From positions 1 to 22,144 of the IMG/VR virus record IMGVR_UViG_3300048589_000791: a DNA stretch of 22,144 nt; one strand, given 5' to 3'. How positions within the stretch are numbered: position 1 is the stretch's first letter; every line of letters begins with the position of its first letter. Made by a program: the position numbers and the translations under genes. This DNA is from a virus. Below, one piece after another: positions 6,836 to 22,144 of the stretch. Below the pieces are notes generated by a model. The model was given only the letters and a program-made list of their open reading frames with translations, searched no databases and was not told the DNA's origin.

Positions 6836-8521
6836 ATGCGCCTGCGCCCCCGCCAGAAAACCTTCGTCGAGCGCAGCGTGGCTGCGCTCGCTTCCCGCGG
6901 CAACACGCTGGGCGTGGCGCCCACCGGCGCGGGCAAGACCATCATGCTCTCGGCGGTCACCGGCGAAATGATCGGCGACGGGGCCAAGGCCTGCGTGCTG
7001 GCCCATCGCGACGAGCTGACGGCGCAGAACCGCGCCAAGTTCCAGCGCGTGGTGCCGGGCGTCGCCACATCGGTCATCGACGCCACGGAGAAGTCCTGGG
7101 GCGGCCAGGTCGCCTTCGCCATGGTGCCGACGCTGGCGCGGGCTTCGAACCTTGCCGACATGCCGCGCCTCGACCTGCTGGTCGTGGACGAGGCGCATCA
7201 CGCCGTCGCCAACAGCTACCGCCGGATCATCGACCGGGTGCGCGAGGCCAATCCCGACGCCCGCATCTTCGGGGTCACGGCGACGCCGAACCGGGGCGAC
7301 TGGAAGGGCCTGCGCGAGGTCTTCGACAATGTCGCAGATCAGGTGCGGCTGGGCGAGCTGATCGCCTCGGGCCATCTGGTGCCGCCCCGCACCTTCGTCA
7401 TCGACGTGGGCGTGCAGGACGAGTTGCGCTCGGTCCGCAAGACCATGTCGGATTTCGACATGGCGGAGGTGGCGGGCATCATGGACCGCGCCCCCGTCAC
7501 CGACGAGGTGATCCGCCACTGGAAGGAGAAGGCGGCCGACCGGCAGACCGTGGTGTTCTGCTCCACCGTCGCGCACGCCGAGCATGTCACCGAGGCGTTC
7601 AGGGCCGCAGGCGTTTCCGCCGCGCTGATCCACGGCGATCTGGCGGCAGAAACCCGCAAGGCGATCCTCGCCGACTACGCGGCGGGCGACATCCGCGTCG
7701 TCGTCAACGTGGCGGTGCTGACCGAGGGCTGGGACCATCCGCCCACCTCCTGCGTCGTGCTGCTGCGACCGAGTTCCTACAAGTCCACCATGATCCAGAT
7801 GGTCGGGCGCGGCCTGCGCACCGTCGATCCCGAGGAACATCCTGGCATCGTGAAGACCGATTGCGTCGTGCTGGACTTCGGCACTTCCAGCCTGATCCAC
7901 GGCACGCTGGAACAGGATGTCGATCTCGAGGGCAAGACCGAGGCTGGAGAGGCCCCGACCAAATCCTGCCCCGGCTGCGGCGCTGAAATCCCGCTGGCTG
8001 CCACGGAATGCCCGCTCTGTGGCGAGGTATTCCCGCGGGAGGATGAAGACGGCGGCGAAGGCGGCACGGCCCCGCTGTCCGGCTTCATCATGACCGAGAT
8101 CGACCTGTTGAAGCGGTCCAGCTTCGCATGGGTCGATCTCTTTGGCACCGACGACGCGATGATGGCCACGGGCTTCACGGCCTGGGGCGGTATCTTCTGG
8201 CTGGACGGTGCCTGGTTTGCCGTAGGCGGCGCGAAGGGCGAACGCCCGCACCTGCTGGGTGTTGGCGAACGCACCGTCTGCCTCGCACAGGCCGATGATT
8301 GGCTGAACACCCATGAAACCGACGAAAGCGCCTTCAAGACCCGTTCCTGGCTGCGCCAGCCGCCGACCGAAAAGCAGCTGCAATACTTGGCCCCCGAATG
8401 CCGCCATGATTTCGGCCTGACGCGCTATCGCGCCTCGGCGCTGATGACCTTCGGCTTCAACAAGCGCGCCATCCGCCAGTTGATCGACAGCGCGGCCAGC
8501 CCCGAGCGGAGGGCGGCATGA
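6836..8521 (+). CDS. DEAD/DEAH-box superfamily 2 helicase with zinc ribbon
   Basis: A 561-aa SF2 helicase. Motif I is APTGAGKT (28-35), motif II is DEAH (118-121), motif III is TATP in GVTATPNRGD (~150), and motif VI is QMVGRGLR (~325). A C-terminal helicase domain includes VVFCSTVAHAEHV, IHGDLAAETR and LTEGWDHPP. Around 380-400 lies a four-cysteine zinc ribbon (CPGCGAEIPL..CPLCGEVF), followed by an extra ~150-residue domain. This arrangement is typical of phage DEAD/DEAH helicases related to RecG/UvsW-like or type I/III restriction-type motors, used for replication fork remodelling or unwinding. Start 6836 is preceded by GGGGGAG. The stop at 8521 is 3 bp from the next start. It is not a restriction subunit, as no nuclease or modification partner is adjacent. 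Confidence 0.93.
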   Translation: MRLRPRQKTFVERSVAALASRGNTLGVAPTGAGKTIMLSAVTGEMIGDGAKACVLAHRDELTAQNRAKFQRVVPGVATSVIDATEKSWGGQVAFAMVPTLARASNLADMPRLDLLVVDEAHHAVANSYRRIIDRVREANPDARIFGVTATPNRGDWKGLREVFDNVADQVRLGELIASGHLVPPRTFVIDVGVQDELRSVRKTMSDFDMAEVAGIMDRAPVTDEVIRHWKEKAADRQTVVFCSTVAHAEHVTEAFRAAGVSAALIHGDLAAETRKAILADYAAGDIRVVVNVAVLTEGWDHPPTSCVVLLRPSSYKSTMIQMVGRGLRTVDPEEHPGIVKTDCVVLDFGTSSLIHGTLEQDVDLEGKTEAGEAPTKSCPGCGAEIPLAATECPLCGEVFPREDEDGGEGGTAPLSGFIMTEIDLLKRSSFAWVDLFGTDDAMMATGFTAWGGIFWLDGAWFAVGGAKGERPHLLGVGERTVCLAQADDWLNTHETDESAFKTRSWLRQPPTEKQLQYLAPECRHDFGLTRYRASALMTFGFNKRAIRQLIDSAASPERRAA

Positions 8522-8935: not shown

Positions 8936-9702
8936 CGCTGGACTTCAATCACCGCCCGAGCTTCGCCGAGCAGGTCAATGCCGCCGTCGATCAGGCGCTG
9001 ACCGCCGATCAGGCAACACGCACGCCCCGCGACTATCTTGGCGGCTCTCGCCTCGGCCACGCCTGCGAGCGCGCCCTGCAGTTCGAGTTTACTGCGACGC
9101 CGAAGGACGACGGTCAGGACTTCTCAGGCCAGTCGCTGCGCATCTTCGCCATCGGCCACGCGCTCGAGGATCTGGCCGTCACCTGGCTGCGCGGCGCGGG
9201 CTTCGATCTCTATACCCGCAAGGGCAACCGCCCCGATGGCGGCCAGTTCGGCTTCTCGGTCGCGGGGGGACGCATCCGCGGTCATGTCGACGGCATCATC
9301 GCCGAAGGCCCCGAAGGCTTCGGTCTGGCCGTTCCCGCCCTCTGGGAATGCAAGACGATGAACGCGAAGAACTGGCGCGCCTGCGTCAAGGACGGCGTGA
9401 CCAAGTCGAAGCCGGTCTATGCCGCCCAGATCGCGGTCTATCAGGCTTACATGGAAACCAGCGTGCCCGGCATCAGCACCGCGCCCGCCGTGTTCTCCGC
9501 GATCAACAAGGACACGGCCGAGATGCACCACGAGCTGGTGCCCTTCGATGCCGATCTCGCGCAGCGCATGTCCGACCGGGGCGTGCGGATCCTTCAGGCG
9601 ACCGATGCGGGCGAGCTTCTGCCGCGCGTGGCCACCACGCCCGACTTCTTCGAATGCCGCTTCTGCCCGTGGTCCGAGCGCTGCTGGGGGCTGCCCGCAT
9701 GA
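8932..9702 (+). CDS. PD-(D/E)XK nuclease, Cas4/RecB-like, with probable Fe-S cysteines
   Basis: A 256-aa RecB/Cas4-type nuclease. The metal-binding acid is in GRIRGHVDGIIA (~115-122), the E-x-K in LWECKTM (~138-143), and the trailing Q in AAQIAVYQAYM. One cysteine near residue 45 (LGHACERA) and three near the C-terminus (~242, 245, 251; ECRFCPWSERCWG) match the four-cysteine 4Fe-4S arrangement of Cas4 and AddB enzymes. Such nucleases resect DNA ends, giving single strands for annealing proteins like the Sak4-like ATPase here. The start is a TTG at 8932, preceded by GGAGGTG, and overlaps the upstream stop as TTGA. The frame continues to 8809 but overlaps the previous gene. There are no Cas1/Cas2 or CRISPR repeats, so this is a phage exonuclease and not a CRISPR component. 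Confidence 0.9.
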   Translation: MTLDFNHRPSFAEQVNAAVDQALTADQATRTPRDYLGGSRLGHACERALQFEFTATPKDDGQDFSGQSLRIFAIGHALEDLAVTWLRGAGFDLYTRKGNRPDGGQFGFSVAGGRIRGHVDGIIAEGPEGFGLAVPALWECKTMNAKNWRACVKDGVTKSKPVYAAQIAVYQAYMETSVPGISTAPAVFSAINKDTAEMHHELVPFDADLAQRMSDRGVRILQATDAGELLPRVATTPDFFECRFCPWSERCWGLPA

Positions 9703-12020
9703 GCGACGACGGCATCCTGCACTTCAACCCGTGGATGGACTTCAACGACGGGCCGCCGTCCGAGAACCCCTTCGGCTGCGACCCCGACCTCGGGCAGATC
9801 GCCGTCTTCCTCGATACCGTGTTCAGCTGGTGCGAGGGGCTGATCCCGCTCCGCGGCTTCGTCGACAAGGGTCAGGGCCGGGACGGCAAGCCGCACAACA
9901 TCTGGATCACGGCCGACGACACCGCGCCGGGGAAACTCGCGACCTTCGCCGCATGGGCGAACCGCGAGGGCGCCGCCGTCTATGTCATTCCCGGCACGGT
10001 CGAGGAACAGGGCCAGGCCCGCGCCGCCGACGTGCTGCAGATGCAGGCCATCGTCGTCGATCTCGATGCGGGCGACATCCCGGCCAAGCTGGACCATGTC
10101 ACCCGCCACCTCGGCGCGCCCACGCTCATCATCGAAAGCGGCGGACGCACGCCCGAGGGCGCGGCGAAGCTCCATGTCTGGTGGAAACTGACCGAACCCG
10201 CCGAGAGCGAAGAGCTGGCCACTCTCTGCCGCCTGCGCGGCGAGATCGCCGTGAAGGTCGGCGGCGACACGCATTTCCGCTCGGCCCACCAGCCGATCCG
10301 GGTGCCGGGCACGGTCTATCACAAGCATGGCCACCAGCGCCTCGTGCAGATCCGCGAACATCGCGCCATTGAGGTAGACCTAGCGGATTTCGGCGAGAAG
10401 GTCGCCGAGATGCCGCCGCTGCCCGGCGTGGGCTTCGCCAGTGACGTTGCCACGGCGACTGTGAAGCCCGGCATCGACGCAGTGCTCACCACGCCGGTTC
10501 GCGAAGGCGCGGTCGACGACTGGTCCCGGTTCCAGAGGGCGAGCGCCGCCATTGGCCATTACGTCCGACTGGTGCACGAGGGCCGCCTCGACCCCTTTGC
10601 AGGCTGGGAGGCGATCTGCGGCTACAACGCCGCCATGCTGCGCCCATCCTGGCCGCTCGATCGGCTTCAGGCAGAGTTCGAGCGGCTCTGGACGCTGCAT
10701 GTGAAGCGCAATGGTCCACCGCTCCTGCGCGCGGCCCACGCCGATGCCCCGTCCAGCCCGCTGCCTACCTTCAGCCTCGGCGCGCTGCTGGATGACACGG
10801 GCCCGATGCCCGAGGACATCATCGGCCCCCGCGTACTGACGCCGGGCGGGCTGCTGGTGCTGGGCGGTGCGCCCAAGGTCGGCAAGAGCGACTTCCTGAT
10901 CTCATGGCTCGTGCACATGGCGGCGGGCGTGCCCTTCCTCGGCTTCACGCCGCCACGGCCGCTGCGCGTGTTCTACCTGCAAGCCGAGATCCAGTATCAC
11001 TACCTGCGCGAGCGCCTGCAGCAGATCGCGCTGCCCGCCGCCGTCATCGCCGCCGCGCGTGACACCTTCATCGCCACGCCGAAGCTGAAGCTGCTGCTCG
11101 ACGCGGAGGGCGTCGCCCGCGTCACCGAGGCGATCCGGGCCGCATTTCCCGACGCGCCACCGGACATCATCGTCATCGATCCGATCCGCAACCTGTTCGA
11201 CGGCGGTCCTGATGGCGGTGGCGAGAATGACAACACCGCCATGATGTTCTTCCTGAAGGACCGGGTGGAGCTCCTGCGCGAGGCGGTGAACGCGGACGCG
11301 GGCGTCATCCTCGCCCACCACACCCGCAAGGCCAGCAAGCACCAGGTCAAGGACGATCCCTTCCTCGCCCTCTCCGGCGCCAGCGCGCTGCGCGGCTTCT
11401 ACACCTCGGGACTGCTCATGCACCGGCCTGACGAGGACAGCTGCGTCCGCAGGCTGGAGATCGAGCTGCGCAACGGCCCCGCGCTGCCGGGCAAGCTCAT
11501 CGACAAGGTGAAGGGCGAGTGGGTCGAGCTGAACCCGCTGAACGAGCGCCTGGTGCGCAAGGAAGTCGGCGCGAAGCTCGATGCCGAACGGCTGCGCAAG
11601 CACGATGTCATCCTCGGCATGCTGCTGGATGAGGCGGCCGGTGAGCGCCTCTACACCGCCATGCAGTTCGCCGAGACCTTCGAGAACCGGGGCGGTCTGG
11701 GCAGCAAGCACACGATCCGCGAGCGCCTGAGCGTCCTCGGTACGAAGGGCTTCGTGAAGTTCCTGCGTGACCCCTCAGGGTTCGGCTACCCCGTCACCCG
11801 GTCCCGGTTCGGCTATCTCTGCGTCGAGAGGATGCAGTTCGGCGCACCCGTCGATCATGTCGATCCAGACACCGGCGAGGTCACCACCGAGGTCCGCCCG
11901 GTCCTGCCCAGCCACTTCAAATGCCCCCAGTCCGGGCTCTGCCTGCAGGTCGAAAACCCCGCCGTCTGGGTCTACCCGGAGGGGCTGGAGGACGACCTAA
12001 CTCATATGAGTGAGGCCTGA
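9699..12020 (+). CDS. Primase-helicase: AEP-type primase domain fused to a RecA-like (RepA/AAA_25) helicase
   Basis: A 773-aa replication protein with two modules. The N-terminal half resembles archaeo-eukaryotic-type (RepB/Prim-Pol) primases: VVDLDAGD (~118-125) supplies the acidic DxD, LHVWWKL the strand with conserved His, and HQPIRVPGTVYHKHG the third motif. The C-terminal half is a RecA-fold helicase: Walker A GGAPKVGKSD (~388-397), Walker B IIVIDPIRNLF (~488-498), then VILAHHTRK. It should prime and unwind DNA at the element's origin. ATG 9699 overlaps the nuclease stop by ATGA; a longer upstream frame exists but lies within the nuclease gene. The last codons and stop lie inside the ATGAGTTAGG repeat cluster, so the coding end and a probable origin or operator overlap. 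Confidence 0.9.
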   Translation: MSDDGILHFNPWMDFNDGPPSENPFGCDPDLGQIAVFLDTVFSWCEGLIPLRGFVDKGQGRDGKPHNIWITADDTAPGKLATFAAWANREGAAVYVIPGTVEEQGQARAADVLQMQAIVVDLDAGDIPAKLDHVTRHLGAPTLIIESGGRTPEGAAKLHVWWKLTEPAESEELATLCRLRGEIAVKVGGDTHFRSAHQPIRVPGTVYHKHGHQRLVQIREHRAIEVDLADFGEKVAEMPPLPGVGFASDVATATVKPGIDAVLTTPVREGAVDDWSRFQRASAAIGHYVRLVHEGRLDPFAGWEAICGYNAAMLRPSWPLDRLQAEFERLWTLHVKRNGPPLLRAAHADAPSSPLPTFSLGALLDDTGPMPEDIIGPRVLTPGGLLVLGGAPKVGKSDFLISWLVHMAAGVPFLGFTPPRPLRVFYLQAEIQYHYLRERLQQIALPAAVIAAARDTFIATPKLKLLLDAEGVARVTEAIRAAFPDAPPDIIVIDPIRNLFDGGPDGGGENDNTAMMFFLKDRVELLREAVNADAGVILAHHTRKASKHQVKDDPFLALSGASALRGFYTSGLLMHRPDEDSCVRRLEIELRNGPALPGKLIDKVKGEWVELNPLNERLVRKEVGAKLDAERLRKHDVILGMLLDEAAGERLYTAMQFAETFENRGGLGSKHTIRERLSVLGTKGFVKFLRDPSGFGYPVTRSRFGYLCVERMQFGAPVDHVDPDTGEVTTEVRPVLPSHFKCPQSGLCLQVENPAVWVYPEGLEDDLTHMSEA

Positions 12021-12097
12021 CTCATATGACAGCGCCAACTGTGCACTCAATGAAATCAAAGGTTTACGAGAAAATATGAGTTAGGTCCCGAACTCAT
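11996..12097. repeat. Five-copy ATGAGTTAGG-like decamer cluster (iteron-like; candidate origin or operator)
   Basis: The decamer occurs at 12006-12015 (ATGAGTGAGG) and 12076-12085 (ATGAGTTAGG) on the plus strand. On the minus strand it occurs at 11996-12005 (ATGAGTTAGG), 12016-12025 (ATGAGTCAGG) and 12088-12097 (ATGAGTTCGG). Pairs make palindromes. Bases 12002-12029 are a 28-bp palindrome with 13 of 14 base pairs complementary (arms TCATATGAGT/ACTCATATGA, centre AGGCCT). Bases 12076-12097 pair at 9 of 11 positions. An A/T-richer stretch (12048-12076) lies between them. Iterated sites plus A/T-rich DNA at the end of the primase-helicase gene resemble a replication origin or a strong operator for the RuvC-like operon downstream. 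Confidence 0.65.
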
Positions 12098-12102
12098 GCC
12101 CG

Positions 12103-12159
12103 AAGACTTCATGAAGTCTTATTCCCCAATGATTTCAGCCACTTGTTCTCCCCGGAACA
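12103..12159. promoter_or_regulatory. Perfect 18-bp palindrome and a TGTTC-N6-GAACA dyad
   Basis: Bases 12103-12120 (AAGACTTCATGAAGTCTT) are a perfect 18-bp palindrome immediately after the decamer cluster. At 12144-12159 a second dyad reads TGTTC, six bases, GAACA. Neither is coding, and neither matches the alphaproteobacterial LexA direct repeat (GTTC-N7-GTTC). They are likely protein-binding sites in the 340-bp gap 12021-12360, which has no gene. The palindrome has no T-run after it, so a terminator is unlikely. Confidence 0.5.
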
Positions 12160-12174
12160 GTTAGGTGTCAAACC

Positions 12175-12323
12175 CCCATACTACGTATGGGAGGGCCACC
12201 CCACAGGGTTGGCCACTCCTCCCATACGTCCGGGCCAGCCGCGCGCGCCGCCGTGACGGTCTGTTGTGCTTCTCGATCCGACGACGGCGGCCCCGTACCG
12301 CCAAGCACCAGACCGCCGTCGTC
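12175..12323 (+). promoter_or_regulatory. Leader with two sets of mutually exclusive hairpins before the RuvC-like gene
   Basis: Set 1: CCCATAC (12175-12181) can pair with GTATGGG (12185-12191). Alternatively ACGTATGGGAGG (12183-12194) pairs perfectly over 12 bp with CCTCCCATACGT (12218-12229), enclosing a second small stem GCCA/TGGC (12195-12198 with 12210-12213). Set 2: GACGACGGCGG (12280-12290) pairs perfectly over 11 bp with CCGCCGTCGTC (12313-12323), while CCGCCGT (12248-12254) can compete for the same strand. These alternatives resemble an attenuator-like leader or clustered operators. The Shine-Dalgarno AAGGAG (12349-12354) lies downstream, so control would be by termination or antitermination rather than direct SD masking. 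No ligand class is recognised. Confidence 0.5.
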
Positions 12324-12360
12324 TTCCACCACCACAGGCCACCGGCAAAGGAGACCCATT

Positions 12361-12900
12361 ATGGCTCAGCCGACTCTGATCCCGAATTGCGACGGCGCAA
12401 GGTTTGAATCGCTGCCGCTAGACACCCCCCGCAACCGCTGCATCCTCGCGCTCGACCTCGGCACCTCGACCGGCTGGGCGATCCGTGGCCATGACGGCCT
12501 GATCACCAGCGGCACCGTCTCGCTGCGTCCCGGCCGCTTCGTCGGCGGTGGCATGCGCTACCTGCGCTTCACGAACTGGCTGACCGAGATCGACCGGCTG
12601 TCCGGTCCTGTCGCCGCGATCTGGTTCGAGGAGGTCCGCCGCCACGCGGGCACCGACGCGAGCCACATCTACGGCGGGCTCATGGCCACGCTGACCGCAT
12701 GGGCCGAGCTGCGCGGCGTGCCCTACGAGGGCGTCCCGGTCGGCACGATCAAGCGTCATGCCGCAGGCAAAGGCAACGCCGACAAGGCCGCCATGGTCGC
12801 CGCCGTCCGCGCCCGCGGCTTCAGCCCGGCCGACGATAACGAGGCCGACGCCATCGCCATCCTGCTCTGGGCGATCGAGACGAAGGGAGGTGTCGCATGA
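12361..12900 (+). CDS. RuvC-like Holliday-junction resolvase (RNase H fold)
   Basis: A 179-aa protein. ILALDLGTSTGWAI places the first catalytic Asp at ~32, IWFEEVRRHA the Glu at ~90, and DDNEADAIAILLWA the terminal acidic cluster at ~158-163. TIKRHAAGKGNADKAAMVAA is the usual helix before it. These are the RuvC/RNase H-fold signatures, and length fits RuvC (~170 aa). Phage versions resolve branched recombination intermediates before packaging, which suits the Sak4/nuclease/helicase set upstream. ATG 12361 is set by AAGGAG seven bases upstream; the frame extends to 12187 but crosses the hairpin leader. Its stop overlaps the next gene by ATGA. Confidence 0.88.
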   Translation: MAQPTLIPNCDGARFESLPLDTPRNRCILALDLGTSTGWAIRGHDGLITSGTVSLRPGRFVGGGMRYLRFTNWLTEIDRLSGPVAAIWFEEVRRHAGTDASHIYGGLMATLTAWAELRGVPYEGVPVGTIKRHAAGKGNADKAAMVAAVRARGFSPADDNEADAIAILLWAIETKGGVA

Positions 12901-13097
12901 GATGGCATCCCCACGGCTACGGCGGCCGACGCCGGGATCCCGAGCAGGTCAAGCGCGAGGGTTGGCAGGAACAGGGCGTCCTCGCGGTCTCCGCCGATGA
13001 CGACCGCCTCACCTGGCCCGAGCGTGAACTGGTCCGCCAGCTCGGCGAAAAGCTCTACGGCCCGCGTCCCTCCGACGGGGAGGCGCGCCATGGCTGA
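12897..13097 (+). CDS. Small hypothetical protein between RuvC-like and DUF6362-like genes
   Basis: A 66-aa hydrophilic protein beginning MRWHPHGYGGRRRDPEQVKR, then EGWQEQGVLAVSADDDRLTW, and ending in a polar, charged tail. It overlaps the RuvC-like stop by ATGA and the following start by 8 bp, which is typical of a co-translated phage operon. SRL-type DNA-binding motifs are not visible; a short helix (WPERELVRQLGEKLYG) may mediate protein contacts. No family is recognised. Third-position G/C bias and tight packing support that it is translated. Confidence 0.7.
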   Translation: MRWHPHGYGGRRRDPEQVKREGWQEQGVLAVSADDDRLTWPERELVRQLGEKLYGPRPSDGEARHG

Positions 13098-13470
13098 TCG
13101 CGAATGGACCGCCGACTGCGTCGCCGATCATTTCGAGGAGGCGTTCCGCACCCTGCGCAAGCTGCCGCCGGTGAAGGCGCAGGGCTACTTCAACACCTGG
13201 CCCGACATCGTGCGGACCAGCCGCGAGATCGCGGCGATGGAGCCGCAGCCGATGCGGGTCTGGCCCTCGGCCGCCGCGATCACCCGGCTCGAGCAGACCT
13301 TCGACTGGGTGCTCTGGATTGAGGAGGCGGAGCGCAAGCTGGTCTGGTCCCGCGCAGCCCGTGTGCCGTGGAAGCAGATCAGCGGCGAGCTGGGGTGCGA
13401 CCGCACGACCGCATGGCGGCGTTGGCAGCTGGCACTGACCAAGATCGCTGCGCGCCTGAATGCGCAGTGA
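13090..13470 (+). CDS. DUF6362-like helix-turn-helix protein
   Basis: A 126-aa protein. The C-terminal part (ARVPWKQISGELGCDRTTAW then RRWQLALTKIAARLN) is a sigma-region-4-like HTH. The N-terminal part (WTADCVADHFEEAFRTLRKL then KAQGYFNTWPDIVRTSREIA) is helical with conserved-looking aromatics. I believe this corresponds to DUF6362, a family seen in alphaproteobacterial phages, though the name is from memory. ATG 13090 is preceded by GGGGAGG. It is the last gene of the rightward replication block. Two dyads follow, including the strong hairpin at 13539-13573 that likely ends transcription. It could be a late-gene activator or antiterminator, given its location before the modification and packaging genes; that is inference. 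Confidence 0.8.
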   Translation: MADREWTADCVADHFEEAFRTLRKLPPVKAQGYFNTWPDIVRTSREIAAMEPQPMRVWPSAAAITRLEQTFDWVLWIEEAERKLVWSRAARVPWKQISGELGCDRTTAWRRWQLALTKIAARLNAQ

Positions 13471-13477
13471 CTCCAAT

Positions 13478-13573
13478 GTGTTGCAACACTTTTTCCTTCG
13501 ACATCTGCAACATGATCGTGCTATTCCGAAGGCAAGATGGGGAGAGTGCGCTGGAAAGCTCGCTCTCCCCTTT
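13478..13573 (+). terminator. Terminator region ending the replication operon (palindrome plus strong hairpin)
   Basis: Just after the stop at 13470, GTGTTGCAACAC (13478-13489), a perfect 12-bp palindrome, is followed by TTTTT (13490-13494). Further on, GGGGAGAG (13539-13546) pairs perfectly with CTCTCCCC (13563-13570) around a 16-base loop and is followed by TTTGCATTTG. The second hairpin is a credible Rho-independent terminator for the plus strand and sits 8 bp from the end of the antisense gene at 13581. It may therefore serve both convergent units. The first could instead be an operator. Confidence 0.6.
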
Positions 13574-13580
13574 GCATTTG

Positions 13581-14174
13581 CTATTGGTCAGTGGGCTTCT
13601 TCTGCAGCGACTTCCGGATAGATTCCTCAAAGCGCTCCGGCCGAGAGAAATAGAAGGAGATCTCTTCGTTCGGCAAAGGCTGACCAGGCTGAGGCGGCTG
13701 GCCATCATCGCCTGTAGGTGGCTGACCGGGCGTGAACACCTCTCGCGCTAGCGAGACCACATCGTCACGCAAGTGCCCGAAGCCGACTTTGGCGTCCTGA
13801 TAATCGGCGAGAAAGCTCGCCGCCGAAGATGCAATGGTTATCGTTGAAGCCACGATGACAGCTCCAACTTGAATTTTGGCGAGAACCGAGCCAGCCTCGT
13901 AGCTGATACTGATGACAGTCAAGCGTTCAAGCAGCAGAAGCTGTTCATCTACTCCCAAGGTTTCCGAACGCCGCTCTGGCTTGAATGCGAACTCGCGAGG
14001 ATTGACCCCGTCCAAGCGGGTTTGAAGAATACCGAGCCGTTCGACGAAATAGGGTAAGTCGTTCGACTGTGCGCCAGTACGAACGAAGTCAGCAAAGTTG
14101 CGGTCGGACAATCGATAGGAAATCGTCCCAACATAGGCGGTAAAGCGACCTTCGCCCAATTTCGAATCTACCAT
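13581..14174 (-). CDS. Antisense single-TM protein of unknown function (cargo/moron)
   Basis: A 197-aa protein encoded against the surrounding phage genes. Codons are less G/C-biased than in the flanking replication genes, which suggests separate acquisition. The N-terminal half is soluble (TAYVGTISYRLSDRNFADFV, then LGVDEQLLLLERLTVISISY). One hydrophobic segment, at ~101-122 (KIQVGAVIVASTITIASSAA then SFLADY), is a likely membrane helix. The tail is Pro/Gln/Gly-rich (FTPGQPPTGDDGQPPQPG) and ends in a basic stretch (SIRKSLQKKP). No signal peptide or known family is seen. ATG 14174 has GGAG nine bases upstream; the frame runs open to 14549, but that part looks non-coding. Placement, own terminator and composition fit a lysogenic-conversion or defence/exclusion gene. 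The function is not known. Confidence 0.75.
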   Translation of the reverse strand: MVDSKLGEGRFTAYVGTISYRLSDRNFADFVRTGAQSNDLPYFVERLGILQTRLDGVNPREFAFKPERRSETLGVDEQLLLLERLTVISISYEAGSVLAKIQVGAVIVASTITIASSAASFLADYQDAKVGFGHLRDDVVSLAREVFTPGQPPTGDDGQPPQPGQPLPNEEISFYFSRPERFEESIRKSLQKKPTDQ

Positions 14175-14215
14175 CGCGAACAGCTCCAGGATGACGCAAG
14201 CTACTGGTATGCGGG

Positions 14216-14431
14216 ATGTATTGCCGCTGTGAAGCGAAATCCGCCGCTGGGTGGATGAAGAGCCTCGGATCGGTGATGACTGAAAGGCGGGCACCACGGG
14301 GTTTCCGGTTCCTTCTGCGCGACATTCGTATGCTGGCGGGCGAAGCGCGGGACATCGCCAGCGACAGGGCCGGATTTTTGGGAAGCCACCCGGAAGCCGG
14401 AGCCACTCGCGCGCTGCGCAAACCCCAATGA
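14216..14431 (+). CDS. Doubtful small frame in the gap before the ParB-methyltransferase
   Basis: The 373-bp gap 14175-14547 holds one plus-strand frame of 71 codons. Its central part reads ERRAPRGFRFLLRDIRMLAG, with a basic amphipathic look, and its stop overlaps an ATG at 14428 (ATGA) that is in frame with the following methyltransferase. No Shine-Dalgarno stands out and no family is recognised. The gap also repeats short CCGGAG/CCGGAAGCC words (14383-14512) with no clear order. It may be a small phage gene, a remnant, or untranslated sequence upstream of the methyltransferase. Confidence 0.25.
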   Translation: MYCRCEAKSAAGWMKSLGSVMTERRAPRGFRFLLRDIRMLAGEARDIASDRAGFLGSHPEAGATRALRKPQ

Positions 14432-14547
14432 ACGCTGGCCTTCCGACCGGACACCGCTGGTGGCCGCTGGACCCCGCGTGGAGTCCGGCCCGGCATCCGG
14501 AGTCCGGAAGCCACCGGCATCCACCCGACCGAGGAACCTTGCCCACC

Positions 14548-15924
14548 ATGACGCTGAGCTTCGCCCCGGACGCGATCGAGACCTGGCCGCTGTCGCGCCT
14601 CCAGCCCTACGCGAAGAACGCGAAGGCGCACGGGGCGGACCAGGTCGCGAAGATCGCCGCCAGCATGGCCGAGTTCGGCTGGACCGTGCCGTGTCTCGTC
14701 GGCGAGGACGGCGAGCTGATCGCGGGACACGGGCGCGTGCTGGCCGCCACACAGCTCGGGCTGACCGAGGCGCCGGTGATCGTGCTCGGGCATCTGACCG
14801 AGGCGCAGCGCCGGGCGTATCGGATCGCGGACAACAAGCTGACCGAACTCGGCACCTGGGACGAGGCGCTGCTGTCTGCGGAACTGAACGATCTGCTGGC
14901 CGAGGATTTCGACCTGTCGCTGGTCGGCTTCTCGGACGGCGAACTCGACAAGCTGCTGGCTTTCGTGCCGGAGGGGGACGTTGAAGAAGGTGGCGCCGGG
15001 GGCTCCGTGCCGCCGGTAACCATCCCCGAGCCGCCGCGCAATCCTGCGTCGCGTACCGGCGATCTCTGGATCCTCGGCGACCACCGGCTGCTCTGCGGCG
15101 ACAGCACCAGCGCGGCCGATGTGCGCCGCCTGATGAACGGCGAGCGGGCGATCCTGTTTGCCACCGATCCGCCCTATCTGGTGGACTACGACGGCTCGAA
15201 CCATCCGACCCGCAACAAGGACTGGTCCGCGTCCTATGGCACAACTTGGGACGACTCCTCTCAGGGCGCGGAGCTCTACGACGGCTTCATCGCTGCGGCG
15301 GTCGCCGAGGCCATCGCCGAAGACGCCGCCTGGTACTGCTGGCACGCCTCGCGCCGCCAGGCGATGCTGGAGGCCTGCTGGGAGAAGGCGGGCGCTTTCG
15401 TCCATCAGCAGATCATCTGGGTGAAGGATCGTGGGGTTCTCACCCGCTCGCATTACCTCTGGAAGCACGAGCCGTGCTTCATGGGCTGGCGTCGCCCGAA
15501 CCGTCCGCCGAAGGTGGCGGAGCAGACGCTGCCGTCGACATGGGAGATGCCGTCCTTCGCCAAGGACGAGCGCCCGGACCACCCGACGCCGAAACCGCTC
15601 GACGCCTTCGGGATCCCTATGCGCTGGCACGTCGCCCGTGGCGGCCTCTGCTACGAGCCGTTCTCGGGGTCCGGGTCGCAGATCATGGCGGGCGAGGCCA
15701 ACGGCCGCCGGGTCTTCGCGATGGAAATCAGCCCGGCCTACATCGATGTCGCCGTGGAACGCTGGCAGGCCGAGACCGGCCGCGACGCGATCCTCGACGG
15801 CGACGGTCGGAGCTTCGCGCAGGTAAGGACCGAGCGGCTGGGCGACGACGCCGCCCCCGCGGCAGATACGCCGGACACGGACGCCGCCCCCGAGCCCGCG
15901 CGAAAGCGCAAGACCGCTGCGTGA
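14548..15924 (+). CDS. ParB-domain DNA N6-adenine methyltransferase (DPPY, beta-type order)
   Basis: A 458-aa fusion. Residues ~10-110 form a ParB/Srx-like nuclease-family domain with the box ELIAGHGRVLAA. After a linker rich in G/V/P comes a methyltransferase: ATDPPYLVDYDGS (DPPY at 207-210, catalytic) and later YEPFSGSGSQ (~370, SAM-binding FxGxG). Catalytic motif first and SAM motif second is the beta-class order. DPPY points to N6-adenine, though N4-cytosine cannot be excluded. Phage ParB-methylase fusions like this modify viral DNA, plausibly for evading restriction or timing packaging. ATG 14548 was chosen at the start of the ParB-like domain; GAGGAA lies 12-17 bases upstream. An ATG at 14428 would add 40 Pro/His/Trp-rich residues. 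No partner endonuclease is adjacent. Confidence 0.92.
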   Translation: MTLSFAPDAIETWPLSRLQPYAKNAKAHGADQVAKIAASMAEFGWTVPCLVGEDGELIAGHGRVLAATQLGLTEAPVIVLGHLTEAQRRAYRIADNKLTELGTWDEALLSAELNDLLAEDFDLSLVGFSDGELDKLLAFVPEGDVEEGGAGGSVPPVTIPEPPRNPASRTGDLWILGDHRLLCGDSTSAADVRRLMNGERAILFATDPPYLVDYDGSNHPTRNKDWSASYGTTWDDSSQGAELYDGFIAAAVAEAIAEDAAWYCWHASRRQAMLEACWEKAGAFVHQQIIWVKDRGVLTRSHYLWKHEPCFMGWRRPNRPPKVAEQTLPSTWEMPSFAKDERPDHPTPKPLDAFGIPMRWHVARGGLCYEPFSGSGSQIMAGEANGRRVFAMEISPAYIDVAVERWQAETGRDAILDGDGRSFAQVRTERLGDDAAPAADTPDTDAAPEPARKRKTAA

Positions 15925-15925
15925 C

Positions 15926-17107
15926 ATGCATGACCTGGCTCTACCTTCCTCCGGACGCGCTTCCGGAACCGGAGACGCATGCCTCTTCGGCCTCTCCTTC
16001 TGTTCCGGCGCAGGCGGGCTCGACCTCGGGCTCACCATCGCCATCCCCGGATATCGTGCTGTGGGCCATGTCGAACGGGAAACCTACGCCGCAGCAACTC
16101 TTGTGGCGCGGATGGAAGACGCGTCCCTGGATCAGGCTGTTGTCTGGGACGATGTTGCCACCTTCGACGGCCGCCCGTGGCGCGGCGCGGTGGACATCAT
16201 CACTGCGGGTTATCCGTGCCAGCCGTTCTCTGTCGCGGGCAAGCGCCGGGGCGCCGACGACCCGCGCCACCTCTGGCCCCATGTCGCCCGCATCATCGGT
16301 GAAATTAAACCGCCCTTCGTGTTCCTCGAAAATGTCGCCCATCATCTCCGCCTCGGCTTCCCCGAAGTCGCCAGCGGACTGGTCGGCATGGGCTACCGCC
16401 TTGCGGCAGGCCTCTTCACGGCGGCGGAAGTCGGCGCGCCCCATCGACGCGAGCGGCTGTTCATCCTTGCCATTCGAGAAGGCGACACGCTGGCCGACCC
16501 CGCGCGCCTGCTCTGGCACCCGGTCGAGTGGCGGCAACCGGACGGAACTGCTGTGTCTCTGGCCGACGCCGAGGGCCAGCGCCAACGAGAACCGGCAGAC
16601 GAAACCCACGCCGTCGCAGGAAGCGGGTCAGCACGGCATGAACCTCGCGACGACCGCCGCGCTCTGGCCGACGCCCCAGATCGACAGTTTCCGCAGTCGG
16701 GGTGGCGAGCGGAAGGACGAGAAGGGTCTGGACCGGATGGCGCGGGACTGGCCAACGCCGATGGCGAACGACGGCTGCAAGCCGAGCGCAGGCAATCGCA
16801 AGACGGCCGATCTGACCCATGCGGCGGGGATGTGGATGACGCCGACGGCGCGCGATCACAAGGATGGGGCGACGACACTGGCGAACACGCCGGTGAACGG
16901 GTTGCTTGGCCGCCAGGTCCTGGTGACGCCGATGGCTGGGAGCGATACCTGCGATGTGCGCCGGACCTTGAACCCGCTGTTCGTCGAGGCGCTGATGGGA
17001 TGGCCCACCGGGTGGACCGGCTTCGCCTCTGTGGCAACGGCGTGGTCCCTCTGGTTGCAGCGCATGCGCTGCGAACTCTCGCGGCTGAGCTGCTGGCCGA
17101 TGGATGA
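15926..17107 (+). CDS. dcm: DNA (cytosine-5-)-methyltransferase
   Basis: A 393-aa C5-cytosine methyltransferase. Motif I is FCSGAGGLDLG (25-35), motif IV GYPCQPFS with catalytic Cys98, motif VI FLENVA (~132-137), motif VIII RRERLFILA (~175-183), and motif X RLRLCGNGVVPLVAAHALRT near the end. It transfers a methyl group from SAM to cytosine in double-stranded DNA; target specificity is unknown. The region between VIII and X (about 16490-16990), where a target-recognition domain should be, is an odd Asp/Gly/Arg/Ala-rich sequence with LADA repeats. Its third codon positions are far less G/C-rich than the +1 frame: 48 of 86 codons against 74 of 86, counted by hand over 16737-16994. This suggests overlap with another coding frame, or a frameshift. 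It starts 1 bp after the adenine methyltransferase stop. Confidence 0.85.
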   Translation: MHDLALPSSGRASGTGDACLFGLSFCSGAGGLDLGLTIAIPGYRAVGHVERETYAAATLVARMEDASLDQAVVWDDVATFDGRPWRGAVDIITAGYPCQPFSVAGKRRGADDPRHLWPHVARIIGEIKPPFVFLENVAHHLRLGFPEVASGLVGMGYRLAAGLFTAAEVGAPHRRERLFILAIREGDTLADPARLLWHPVEWRQPDGTAVSLADAEGQRQREPADETHAVAGSGSARHEPRDDRRALADAPDRQFPQSGWRAEGREGSGPDGAGLANADGERRLQAERRQSQDGRSDPCGGDVDDADGARSQGWGDDTGEHAGERVAWPPGPGDADGWERYLRCAPDLEPAVRRGADGMAHRVDRLRLCGNGVVPLVAAHALRTLAAELLADG

Positions 17108-17156
17108 GGTCGGAAGTTCGTTTTCTGAACCCCAGCTGTATGCTATCAAAGTCTAG
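15930..17156 (+). CDS. Overlapping +1-frame reading frame with W-P-T-P repeats (dual-coding candidate)
   Basis: A 408-codon open frame in the +1 frame of the C5-methyltransferase; its ATG (15930) lies 4 bases after the methyltransferase ATG (15926; ATGCATG). It begins MTWLYLPPDALPEPETH. It includes GKPTPQQLLWRGWKTRPWIR, LLSGTMLPPSTAARGAARWT and a Ser/Thr-rich stretch. It then has repeated WPTP/TPTA units (LWPTPRASANENRQTKPTP, RDWPTPMAND, WMTPTARDHKD) and LNPLFVEALMGWPTGWT. I recall annotated phage proteins with just these features (RAWK..W, LSG..PST, repeated WPTP, LMGWP.GWT). The LADA repeats of the methyltransferase and WPTP here are the same bases in two frames. Third-position G/C strongly favours this frame from ~16490 to ~17090. 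It may be a real overlapping gene, or the true C-terminus reached by frameshift. Confidence 0.45.
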   Translation: MTWLYLPPDALPEPETHASSASPSVPAQAGSTSGSPSPSPDIVLWAMSNGKPTPQQLLWRGWKTRPWIRLLSGTMLPPSTAARGAARWTSSLRVIRASRSLSRASAGAPTTRATSGPMSPASSVKLNRPSCSSKMSPIISASASPKSPADWSAWATALRQASSRRRKSARPIDASGCSSLPFEKATRWPTPRACSGTRSSGGNRTELLCLWPTPRASANENRQTKPTPSQEAGQHGMNLATTAALWPTPQIDSFRSRGGERKDEKGLDRMARDWPTPMANDGCKPSAGNRKTADLTHAAGMWMTPTARDHKDGATTLANTPVNGLLGRQVLVTPMAGSDTCDVRRTLNPLFVEALMGWPTGWTGFASVATAWSLWLQRMRCELSRLSCWPMDEVGSSFSEPQLYAIKV

Positions 17157-17176
17157 GGCTTTAGTGAGACTCGAGC

Positions 17177-17617
17177 ATGGCACTTTGGAACTGGTTCAAA
17201 AAAGCACCGGAGCCTGACCGACTCACCGTCAGTGAGATCATGGAGAACCGTCTTTTCTTCACTCGCAAGAAGAATAGACACGGGTATGTTGTTGAGGCTG
17301 AAAAATCTATCGACGAAGCATTTCATCTTTTTCGGCTGGAGCTATTTAAACTCCGAATGGCGGAAATTGGTGTATCAGATGATTGGGTAAAGCAAAACTC
17401 TCCGATCAAAGTTGAAGTAGAAGACCTCCCGGAGCTCAGTCAAATGAGCAGGCGAGAGCTCGATGCTTTGACAAGGAAGCTCCAGTCAATTGAGTATCTT
17501 CGTTCAGAAGTCATCGTGGCTTCGGCTCGGCTAGCAAAGCAAGCAAAGCTTGCACGACATAGGAAACATGAGGCCGAGGCGGGTCAGGCGGAAGGGCCAA
17601 AGAAAGACTTAATCTGA
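17177..17617 (+). CDS. Hypothetical protein, first gene of an A/T-richer two-gene module
   Basis: A 146-aa soluble, charged, mostly helical protein. It starts MALWNWFKKAPEPDRLTVSE, has a basic segment (FFTRKKNRHGYVVEAEKSID) and a likely helix EAFHLFRLELFKLRMAEIGV, and ends in a long charged helix (LRSEVIVASARLAKQAKLAR then HRKHEAEA). The DNA is visibly richer in A/T than the methyltransferase and terminase genes around it, with A/T-ending codons, so the pair was probably acquired separately. No family, signal peptide or membrane segment is recognised. Its stop shares a base with the next ATG (TGATG, 17615-17619), so the two proteins are probably made together. That suggests a functional pair such as toxin-antidote, effector-partner or an exclusion system, but function is unknown. 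Confidence 0.75.
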   Translation: MALWNWFKKAPEPDRLTVSEIMENRLFFTRKKNRHGYVVEAEKSIDEAFHLFRLELFKLRMAEIGVSDDWVKQNSPIKVEVEDLPELSQMSRRELDALTRKLQSIEYLRSEVIVASARLAKQAKLARHRKHEAEAGQAEGPKKDLI

Positions 17618-18636
17618 TGAAAGCAGAAGACGGAAAAGAAAGTCAAGAGGATCATCGACCGCAAGCTTGGTCGTACGATCTTTTGGTTGAATCTTTATGT
17701 GCGTCGATTGGTAACGATCTGAATACCTCATCTGGAAAGTTAAGAACCCTATTGGGAACATCTCATGGGTATTTTTCCAAGTCCGCCATGCAGGAGTACG
17801 AGTCGCACCTCAGCGAAATGATACAGTCAGCGGGAATTAAGCCTCATTCCGACACGATTAACGCATTTGCTCACGCCTACGCATCTGCGCTCATATACGT
17901 ATCGACCAGTCAATATCTATCGGAAAACTTAGGTGGGCAAGTGGCTACCGTTTTGGGAAATATGAAGGAAACCAGCTACAGGGAAGTGATCGGATTGAAG
18001 GGAGACACAAAGGCCGACTCGATCAAGGATCAGCTAGACAATGCCCTCGGAAGAGATGTGGGGCGCTACATCATTTCAACCGGAGGCGGAGTTTCCGACA
18101 TTCCGCAAGTCTTGGTGGATCGCTATTTTAATGGAGACTTTTATCTTCTGGAGCCGGACGAAGCCACGATCGTGCACAGTGATGGATTGCCATTTGGGAC
18201 GGTTGTCGGCGGTGATTTAATCATTGAAGGGGCGCCATCTCATTTGTCATTGGAATCAAGAGATGAGCTTTATAGCCCCGATTTTGGCTGGCCAGACCTT
18301 GAAGCCAGTCTGGATAACTTGTTTGAAAATGGCATAACAAGCCAAACTTCGCTTGATATAAGTGGTTATGATATTTTCGGTTTTAGTCACTTCGACTATG
18401 GCATCGAGAGCTCCAGTGATCACCTCGAGAACGACGACTCAGGTCAGGGCGAACACTCAAGTGACGGTAGCGATCGGCATGACGCCTATGACAATGACTT
18501 GCAGGAGGGAATAGAAATGAACGATCTAAGTGATGTTGGTGGATATTCGTCTGGTGTTGCCGCCAATGAGAGAGATGGACAAAGTGGTAACTTTAACAAT
18601 CTCGATCACCGGAGCCCCGGGAATACATCAACCTAG
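17617..18636 (+). CDS. Hypothetical protein with AFxHAY...DNxxGR pattern and disordered acidic tail
   Basis: A 339-aa protein and second gene of the A/T-richer pair. Residues ~80-150 read TINAFAHAYASALIYVSTSQ, then after ~40 residues KDQLDNALGRDVGRYI. An A-F-x-H-A-Y helix and a distal D-N-x-x-G-R helix resemble, loosely, the DUF6973-type domain seen at the ends of some secreted or toxin-like proteins; this match is tentative. A short segment VDRYFNGDFYLLEPDEATIV follows. The last ~90 residues are Asp/Ser/Gly/Asn-rich (SSSDHLENDDSGQGEHSSDG) and probably disordered. No signal peptide or membrane helix is seen. It converges on the small leftward gene ending at 18688, without a clear hairpin between them. 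The role is unknown; a cargo toxin or defence effector is inference. Confidence 0.75.
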   Translation: MKAEDGKESQEDHRPQAWSYDLLVESLCASIGNDLNTSSGKLRTLLGTSHGYFSKSAMQEYESHLSEMIQSAGIKPHSDTINAFAHAYASALIYVSTSQYLSENLGGQVATVLGNMKETSYREVIGLKGDTKADSIKDQLDNALGRDVGRYIISTGGGVSDIPQVLVDRYFNGDFYLLEPDEATIVHSDGLPFGTVVGGDLIIEGAPSHLSLESRDELYSPDFGWPDLEASLDNLFENGITSQTSLDISGYDIFGFSHFDYGIESSSDHLENDDSGQGEHSSDGSDRHDAYDNDLQEGIEMNDLSDVGGYSSGVAANERDGQSGNFNNLDHRSPGNTST

Positions 18637-18687
18637 TATTCGCTTCTCTCTTCAAGTAACAAAAGATTTCGCTCAAGCCTTGTACTT

Positions 18688-18912
18688 TCACTCGGCGTGT
18701 TCGCCTTCCTTGAAGGCAATGTCGGTGATCTCGCGCAGCTTGGCGCGGTAGTGGTTCAGGGTGCCGACGTCGCCCCAATGGATATCGTCGGGGCTGGTCG
18801 CGAAATGGTCGGCGCTGAGGGCCACAAGGCGCTCCAGCATCGCGTCGATCTCGGTCTTGGCGGCGATGAAGGCGTCGAGGGCTTTGGCGTTGTCGGTCGC
18901 GCGGTGGGTCAT
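18688..18912 (-). CDS. Small conserved-looking protein divergent from the terminase genes
   Basis: A 74-aa helical protein: MTHRATDNAKALDAFIAAKT, then EIDAMLERLVALSADHFATS, then DIHWGDVGTLNHYRAKLREI and an acidic end (TDIAFKEGEHAE). ATG 18912 has AAGGAG eight bases upstream on the minus strand. An upstream open frame to 19302 is a shadow of the terminase small-subunit gene. Proteins with the DIHWGDVGTLNHY segment are familiar to me from alphaproteobacterial prophages next to Nu1-type terminases; function unknown. It is transcribed away from the terminase, across a 112-bp space holding a perfect dyad (18973-18995), and could be a small regulator or accessory packaging protein. Confidence 0.8.
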   Translation of the reverse strand: MTHRATDNAKALDAFIAAKTEIDAMLERLVALSADHFATSPDDIHWGDVGTLNHYRAKLREITDIAFKEGEHAE

Positions 18913-18972
18913 CTTGGTGGCTCCTTGGTCAGGTTGCATCGTTGCGTTGGACCCACCTTCGCTCTGTCTGCG

Positions 18973-18995
18973 ATGCTTATCAACGAGATAAGCAT
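18973..18995. promoter_or_regulatory. Perfect 9-bp inverted repeat between divergent genes
   Basis: ATGCTTATC (18973-18981) and GATAAGCAT (18987-18995) form a perfect 9-bp inverted repeat with a 5-base spacer. It lies in the A/T-rich 112-bp space between the divergent small gene (start 18912) and the terminase small subunit (start 19025). ATGTTTTTG follows. A GATAAT hexamer (19008-19013) may be part of a terminase promoter, though it is close to the start. The dyad suits an operator controlling packaging genes. A weak terminator is less likely at this place. Confidence 0.5.
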
Positions 18996-19024
18996 ATGTT
19001 TTTGAATGATAATCGGAGCAGCCA

Positions 19025-19585
19025 ATGCAGGGCATGAGCGAGCGCCAGTACGCCGCGCATGTCGGCCTGTCGCGGGGCGCGATCCAGAAGGCGAAGACGG
19101 CTGAACGATTGGTGCTGTTCGCCGATGGCAGCATCGATGCCGAGGCCAGCGATGTGCGCCGGGCGGAAACGACCGACCCGTCGAAGACGCGGAAGCAGCA
19201 CGAACCGAAGTTGAAGCCGGTACCCGAGGCGGCCGTTGCTGCTGTCGGCGATACGCTGCGCGAGCAGGGTCTGGCGGTGCCAGCGGTCGGTGGTGGCACC
19301 ACTTACCTGCAGGCCAAGACCGCCAACGAGGTTCTGAAGGCGCAGGAGCGACGTATCCGGCTGCAGAAGCTGAAGGGGGAGTTGATCGAGCGTGCCCGGG
19401 CGTTGTCGCTGGTGTTCCGGCTGGCTCGGGAGGTGCGGGACGCATGGGTGAACTGGCCCGCGCGCTCGTCTGCGCTGATGGCGGCAGAACTGGGGGTCGA
19501 ACCGGCCGCGATGCAGAAGGCCTTGGAAAAACATGTCCGCGCCCACCTCGACGAACTTGCCGAGGTCCGGCCTGATTTCCGGTGA
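19025..19585 (+). CDS. Terminase small subunit (Nu1-like)
   Basis: A 186-aa protein. The N-terminus has an HTH of the Nu1/'phage DNA packaging' type (SERQYAAHVGLSRGAIQKAK). The middle has ANEVLKAQERRIRLQKLKGE then LIERARALSLVFRLAREVRD, and the end has WVNWPARSSALMAAELGVEP. This order (DNA-binding HTH, then a helical LKGELIxxxxA..VF...R..RD.W..WP region) is the recognisable signature of small terminase subunits that bind cos/pac DNA and hand it to the large subunit. ATG 19025 has CGGAGC about 8 bases upstream; a second ATG at 19034 is possible. The C-terminal end overlaps the large-subunit start by 53 bp in another frame. Confidence 0.88.
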   Translation: MQGMSERQYAAHVGLSRGAIQKAKTAERLVLFADGSIDAEASDVRRAETTDPSKTRKQHEPKLKPVPEAAVAAVGDTLREQGLAVPAVGGGTTYLQAKTANEVLKAQERRIRLQKLKGELIERARALSLVFRLAREVRDAWVNWPARSSALMAAELGVEPAAMQKALEKHVRAHLDELAEVRPDFR

Positions 19586-21527: not shown

Positions 21528-21546
21528 GAACGATCGAGACCTTTTG

Positions 21547-22144
21547 TCAAAGCAGGCAGCACTTCTTGAATTTCCTGCCGCTGCCGCAGGGACAGGGATC
21601 GTTGCGGCCGACCTTGGGCATCTCGCGCTGGAAGGGTTCGCTGGCGAAGTCCGTCAGCCAGTCGTCGTGATGGCCGCGTTGCTTTTGGTCACTCTGGTAC
21701 TTGTCGGAAAAGCAGTACCAGCCGGACAGCTCGTCGATGGCGCTCTCGATGGGTCGGGTATTGCGGCTTTGGTGAAACCAGCTGGACGTACCGGTCCCGA
21801 CCGCCTCCTGCAGGGTGCGCCGGAAGTCGTCGACCGTCGAAAGGTCCGGGGAAATCCATTCGTCTTCGTAGGCCTGGACGACCATCGGCTCCAGATGGGC
21901 AAGGCCGAGTTCGGCCACCGCGAAGGCCCAAGTGTCCCACAGTTCCTCCGGTTTTTCCATGTCGGCTGAAACGAACGCCTCCATGTATGCCGCGATGTCG
22001 GGGGCCTTTTCCGGATGGCGCCGTGCGATCATGACCAGCGCGTCAATCATCTGGCTGCGCACGAAAACGTCGGCTCCCGCATCCTCGACGACCTCGAGGA
22101 TCGGCGTCAGATCGCCGTCGAACACCCCGGCGATGACCCGGGCC
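21547..22144 (-). CDS. DUF1186-like protein with C-terminal SEC-C zinc motif (5' end outside window)
   Basis: At least 199 residues, running off the right edge; GTG at 22125 could be read as a start, but sequence upstream continues in frame (ARVIAG), so it is probably internal. The N-terminal part is helical and HEAT-like ([20 protein letters not shown] then [20 protein letters not shown]), which suits DUF1186. The C-terminus is a SEC-C motif ([16 protein letters not shown]), a zinc-binding module like that of SecA. SEC-C proteins are poorly characterised; many bind nucleic acid or ribosome-linked partners. It lies antisense, 19 bp after the large terminase, where portal genes often follow. 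It may be a cargo gene or mark the end of the phage remnant. No SecA-like ATPase domain is present. Confidence 0.85.

Follow-up and report, generated by a model that had tools for sequence, protein, structure and literature searches.

The interval between the gene for a 773-amino-acid primase-helicase (9699–12020, top strand) and the gene for a RuvC-like resolvase (12361–12900) is probably the origin from which a temperate phage infecting Rhodobacterales/Rhizobiales replicates, and at its right edge lies an element that is inherited separately. We put the probability of this reading at roughly 0.6, and the origin function is inferred from sequence. The window, i.e., the whole 22,144-nt stretch that was analysed, is an IMG/VR virus record in which serine integrase, replication module, and terminase genes are present. 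Two ORFs without a family match (17177–18636) form a stretch of ~50% GC within a phage of 65%–70% GC, probably a recent insertion. The DNA between the two genes had no match in INPHARED, and a search of Rfam returned no family above the gathering score, the single hit being a chance-level match to mir-218 (19 bits; cut-off, 62). Relatives were drawn from viral contigs and genomes, the latter including those of Paracoccus, Jannaschia, Rhodovulum, Hoeflea, Labrys, and Devosia, and counts across the relatives are partially corrected for kinship. In the window (seen over 12270–22144) and in 47 loci, the sign of the GC skew switches ~1 kb to the right of the right-hand element, in a setting where most genes lie on the same strand throughout; in what are mostly integrated prophages, this is weak evidence for an origin.

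The protein encoded at 9699–12020 has the composition of a replication initiator, with a primase at the N-terminus, a helicase in the middle, and a C-terminal domain (11619–12017), as judged from Pfam, a fold model, and the coupling to repeats described below. The middle domain is a RepA-like helicase (PF13481, AAA_25, E = 1.5e-23). The N-terminal domain (residues 1–275) has a sub-threshold Pfam match to RepB_primase (PF16793, E = 0.087), and its AlphaFold model, built from seven sequences with a pLDDT of 66 (medium confidence), has as its three best Foldseek matches, each with a probability of 1.00, the PrimPol of cyanophage S-2L, free RepB' of RSF1010, and RepB' with initiator DNA. The structures matched include 6zp9 (E = 2e-8) and two of RepB', 3h20 (E = 2e-7) and 3h25 (E = 3e-6), the last being RepB' of RSF1010 in complex with initiator DNA. 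On this model, the N-terminal domain is a RepB'-like archaeo-eukaryotic primase fold. A search of PDB sequences with the primase-helicase gave chance matches only, and no full-length match to the RepB'-RepA-type fusion was found in INPHARED. The C-terminal domain was modelled with a pLDDT of 82; its structural search gave no significant match, and the weak matches include winged-helix proteins.

What might the C-terminal domain do? The end of the replication gene overlaps an array of ACTCAT/ATGAGT half-sites (11994–12097) that are probably origin iterons. The half-sites lie at 12000, 12006, 12020, 12076, and 12092, and there are no others in the window. Across relatives, the unit of the array changes as a set (ACTCAT, GTCCTC, TGTCAT, CCTCAT, AACTCCT, and others), giving five main iteron classes plus several more within one protein frame. 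The C-terminal 130 residues track the iteron class, with an excess of 20.6 identity points once helicase-domain identity is corrected for, a value reached in 0 of 2,000 label permutations. The permutation test assumes that sequences are exchangeable, but the conclusion also holds in recombinant pairs: where helicase domains are 88%–97% identical, C-terminal domains are 91% identical within a class and 62% identical between classes. These patterns suggest that the C-terminal domain reads the half-site array. The earlier note had offered clustered operator half-sites as its alternative reading; half-sites of this kind do exist in the array, which lies outside the interval that the note described, and they look like origin iterons. 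A perfect 18-bp palindrome, AAGACTTCATGAAGTCTT (12103–12120), which is present in the ACTCAT class, is situated between the iterons and the first of two structured elements.

Element 1 (12173–12231, top strand) consists of three strands that can pair in two ways. S1, CCCCCATAC (12173–12181), is followed by S2, ACGTATGGGAGG (12183–12194), by an inner stem of GGCCA/TGGCC with an apical loop and a 3' bulge, CACT (12195–12217), and by S3, CCTCCCATACGT (12218–12229). S2 pairs perfectly with S3 over 12 bp, and S1 is its alternative partner. The core of S1, CCCATAC (12175–12181), is found in 99 of 103 unique copies, a figure to be read with the knowledge that element 1 loci were gathered partly by sequence pattern and so are biased toward the conserved core. 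The element folds with a z-score of −4.3. Among relatives, the long stem has compensatory changes in its inner pairs (AGG/CCT, ATG/CAT, GCG/CGC), and its covariation is above that of shuffles, which reached the same score in 3 of 500 cases. The three-strand plan is likewise conserved: a sequence X is followed after 3–5 nt by its complement, then by a hairpin, and then by X again. Of 46 non-redundant regions, 26 contain an exact S1-S2-S3 triple of 5 nt or longer, where dinucleotide shuffles predict 1.1; this test used origins located via the protein, which avoids part of the pattern bias, with pattern-fetched loci still included. The triples are built from several unrelated sequences (CCCATAC, CCACCCCC, CACCCC, CTACCC), and since they recur with differing sequences, the S1/S3 switch is a conserved feature.

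The position of element 1 ties it to the replication gene. Wherever the primase-helicase gene can be seen in a fetched locus, element 1 is on its 3' side, and in nearly every non-redundant origin, element 1 or a counterpart is found 145–293 nt past the stop codon. For the strongest hairpin per origin region, the median z-score is −4.25, with 38 of 46 below −3. Element 1 is also present where no RuvC gene follows (loci L260, L297, and L310). A GC-rich stem-loop that is co-inherited with a gene and kept at a fairly constant distance 3' of it could be a terminator or a stabiliser of the mRNA 3' end of the primase-helicase operon, unconnected with origin function. We consider this rather unlikely, given that there is no T-run, that element 1 lies beyond the iteron array and away from the stop codon, and that S1 has been kept as a complement of S2 over unrelated sequences, something that a terminator would not require. 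A coding role is far less probable still. The window does have open frames that would allow a small ORF in element 1 or a RuvC protein extended at its N-terminus (ORF 12187–12900), but the S2-S3 spacing in relatives takes values of 24, 25, 26, 27, 28, and 29 nt, and together with single-base indels in the leader this disrupts every frame; the indels in relatives refute the coding reading. The excess of G.T over A.C in element 1 (15:5) was not kept as a sign of top-strand preference, since S3 would yield that ratio by its base composition, and neither G.T:A.C counts nor fold stability per strand gave a clear strand preference.

Element 2 (12276–12327) differs in being, by its pairing, a structure of the bottom strand. 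On the top strand, it forms an 11-bp stem, GACGACGGCGG (12280–12290) with CCGCCGTCGTC (12313–12323), around a loop of 22 nt that stays open. On the bottom strand, the same DNA (GACGACGGCGGTCT-G-GTGCT-TGGC-GGTAC-G-GGGCCGCCGTCGTC) forms 19 pairs, as 14 pairs, a 1x1 G.G mismatch, five pairs, and a UGGC tetraloop. The minimum free energy is −37.6 kcal/mol on the bottom strand versus −22.5 on the top, with fold z-scores of −7.3 and −3.7, and the bottom strand is the more stable in all 70 unique copies. Shuffles of the loop alone indicate that composition explains −6.9 of −12.3 kcal/mol, about half of the bottom-strand energy advantage, so the claim for the bottom strand rests on pair-by-pair counts. 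In 50 unique aligned copies, 92.3% of cells are paired on the bottom strand versus 76.5% on the top, and G.U cells number 171 versus 22; a single pair runs through U.G, C-G, and U-A among copies. Read on the top strand, stem changes to A.C exceed those to G.U (21:8 events, p = 0.024), contrary both to what a top-strand RNA needs and to the local substitution bias. The standing G.U pairs favour RNA over DNA, and hence we slightly prefer to see element 2 as an RNA made from the bottom strand, antisense to the leader of RuvC; a site in bottom-strand single-stranded DNA is the slightly less likely alternative.

All of the repeats could be double-stranded DNA operators for regulators, with the hairpins as by-products of dyad symmetry: the upstream half-site array is dyad-like, and S1, S2, and S3 might be three half-sites that change together. 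However, pairs of the element 1 inner stem outside S1–S3 also co-vary, and element 2, with its arm spacing of 20–23 nt across copies and its strand-specific pairing, is unlike double-stranded sites. Such an explanation of the whole interval seems improbable to us.

Element 2 is inherited with the RuvC-like gene. That gene encodes 179 amino acids (phrog_159, E = 6.5e-28) and is preceded by a ribosome-binding site, AAAGGAG (12347–12353). Element 2 lies directly 5' of it in 161 of 161 matches with a contig reaching into the gene. Two loci are exceptions to this adjacency: in one (L278), the RuvC gene is ~640 nt beyond; in the other (L301), element 2 (7382–7438, bottom strand) lies immediately before a gene for DUF6362 and there is no RuvC gene, an arrangement that probably arose by RuvC loss. 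Element 2 is found beside unrelated replication genes in two loci (L124 and L096) and is absent from four (L267, L279, L295, and L315), which makes it dispensable for the replicon and not a core part of the origin. Three distant matches to the element 2 model (L362, L474, and L475), which are weak and without any neighbouring genes, were set aside as probably due to chance. We also discarded CATAAT, which resembles a leftward promoter and lies at the start of RuvC in the window, since CATGAT is the form in most relatives.

The 5' end of the RuvC gene is joined to different replication modules, as seen in the window (12361–12440) and in three other loci (L223, L225, and L041). In these three, the RuvC core is 97%–99% identical from residue ~26 onward, the leader and the first ~25 codons are unrelated, and element 2 is missing despite the identity of the core. 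Five other loci (L053, L055, L066, L070, and L082) have RuvC leaders without element 2 but with a small GAAGGC...GCCTTC hairpin at the start codon. In L178–L216, the RuvC-like protein is 97%–99% identical across several host orders (Paracoccus, Labrys, Devosia, Hoeflea, Aurantimonas), which suggests that it has spread widely and recently by horizontal transfer. It is conceivable that element 2 and the RuvC edge mark a recombination boundary for module exchange, with the structure used by the RuvC-like nuclease. Loci share no related sequence on the 5' side of element 2, whose stem is ~7-fold more conserved than that flank (1.5–1.9 versus 13 changes per site), and the element is retained beside different replication modules. 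Nevertheless, short shared edges are expected for any conserved element at the edge of a module, the preference for the bottom strand is left unexplained, and the nuclease target is only putative; we regard this explanation as a long shot.

The earlier note, which considered a single strand and missed the far better bottom-strand pairing of element 2, had proposed an attenuator-like leader of the RuvC-like gene, that is, one top-strand transcript that switches between two sets of hairpins. Its observations of sequence are sound: CCCATAC, GTATGGG (12185–12191), CCGCCGT (12248–12254), and ACGGCGG (12284–12290) are where it placed them, and the perfect repeats of 12 bp and 11 bp are beyond chance by their fold z-scores. 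The compensatory base changes in homologous leaders that it suggested looking for were found as well, in conserved stem-loops. The two switches fared differently. The first, in element 1, is conserved at well above the expected frequency, as described above. The second shows no such conservation: a 7-base complement of the 5' arm of element 2 occurs upstream in 2 of 48 non-redundant relatives, where 2.3 are expected, and the 49-nt top-strand fold of that switch is unremarkable (z = −1.3). The conserved, mutually exclusive S1-S2 and S2-S3 pairings, the location of both hairpins 5' of the RuvC gene, and the z-score of −4.1 for the fold of the whole of 12021–12362 do speak for an attenuator. Against it, there is no intrinsic terminator with a T-run in 11900–12500 (0 sites), element 2 belongs to the bottom strand, element 1 goes with the replication gene and is present where RuvC is absent, and RuvC genes that are 97%–99% identical over the core occur in other loci with neither element. 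The separate genetic partners, and the loci with one element only, fit poorly with one leader RNA carrying two linked switches. An attenuator-type leader is thus unlikely for the region, and the tests of strand, linkage, and the second switch led us to drop a single attenuator for RuvC.

How would such an origin work? First, the C-terminal domain of the primase-helicase would recognise the half-site array (11996–12097); the covariation demonstrates their coupling, and binding is inferred from it. Second, the RepA-like motor would open the DNA, as expected from its family. Third, element 1, whose bulged stem-loop has the shorter S1-S2 hairpin as an alternative, would be exposed in single-stranded form or as RNA; its architecture and conservation are consistent with a place where the RepB'-like primase starts or is loaded, and competition between S1 and S3 may decide whether the long hairpin forms. 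Fourth, element 2, a bottom-strand hairpin that travels with the RuvC 5' end, may act as a structured antisense RNA or as a single-stranded DNA site. A bolder proposal, which we offer tentatively and consider doubtful as a whole, is that a three-strand switch (S1-S2 versus S2-S3) gates priming by a fused RepB'-RepA-type protein and has been re-invented in several sequences along with changes of iteron class, and that next to it a new structured RNA is encoded opposite RuvC.

If the interval is an origin, it would represent an origin type of a widespread and barely described group of temperate phages of Alphaproteobacteria. The relatives would provide a natural series of swaps in initiator-iteron specificity, making origin recognition and incompatibility directly testable. 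Element 2 adds a conserved bottom-strand hairpin that is missing from Rfam.

Several known systems share parts of this arrangement. In attenuators and in ColE1 RNA II, alternative stems form because a shared middle strand pairs with either neighbour, as S2 of element 1 can; they differ in that there is neither a terminator nor a leader peptide here, and the switch here is predicted from sequence. The alpha/ori system of phage P4 resembles the window in having one protein with a primase, a helicase, and C-terminal recognition of repeats; to our knowledge, it has no conserved three-strand hairpin. The P4 primase is of the TOPRIM type (PMC4234260). In RSF1010, the work is divided, with RepC reading the iterons, RepA opening the DNA and exposing the ssi stem-loops, and RepB' priming (PMC4234260, PMC4434180). 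The likeness to the oriV of this IncQ plasmid lies in the RepA-type AAA_25 helicase, the RepB'-type primase fold, and iterons adjoining hairpins. The differences are that here one fused protein is encoded, with a C-terminal domain apparently in place of RepC, and that the hairpins are longer and bulged, with element 2 tied to the next gene and dispensable. The resemblance to ssiA and ssiB is by published description rather than letter by letter. The ssi hairpins carry a GTG priming mark within 13 nt on their 3' side (PMC4434180); neither hairpin here is followed by it within that distance on either strand, so the proposed origin can be said to work like that of RSF1010 but not to be one. RSF1010 has one ssi per strand; here, element 2 belongs to the bottom strand and element 1 is without a clear strand preference. 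Replicons of the pRN1 type (the Sulfolobus pRN plasmids and phage BIP-1) also have a large, structure-conserved stem-loop 3' of a primase-helicase gene; in pRN1, it is a 100-nt stem-loop that is needed for replication and whose structure is kept while its sequence is not (PMC4234260). pRN1 differs in having an SF3 helicase and no iterons, whereas the window has a RepA-type helicase, iterons, and the S1-S2-S3 arrangement. Judged by these comparisons, the anatomy of the interval combines features of RSF1010 with features of pRN1.
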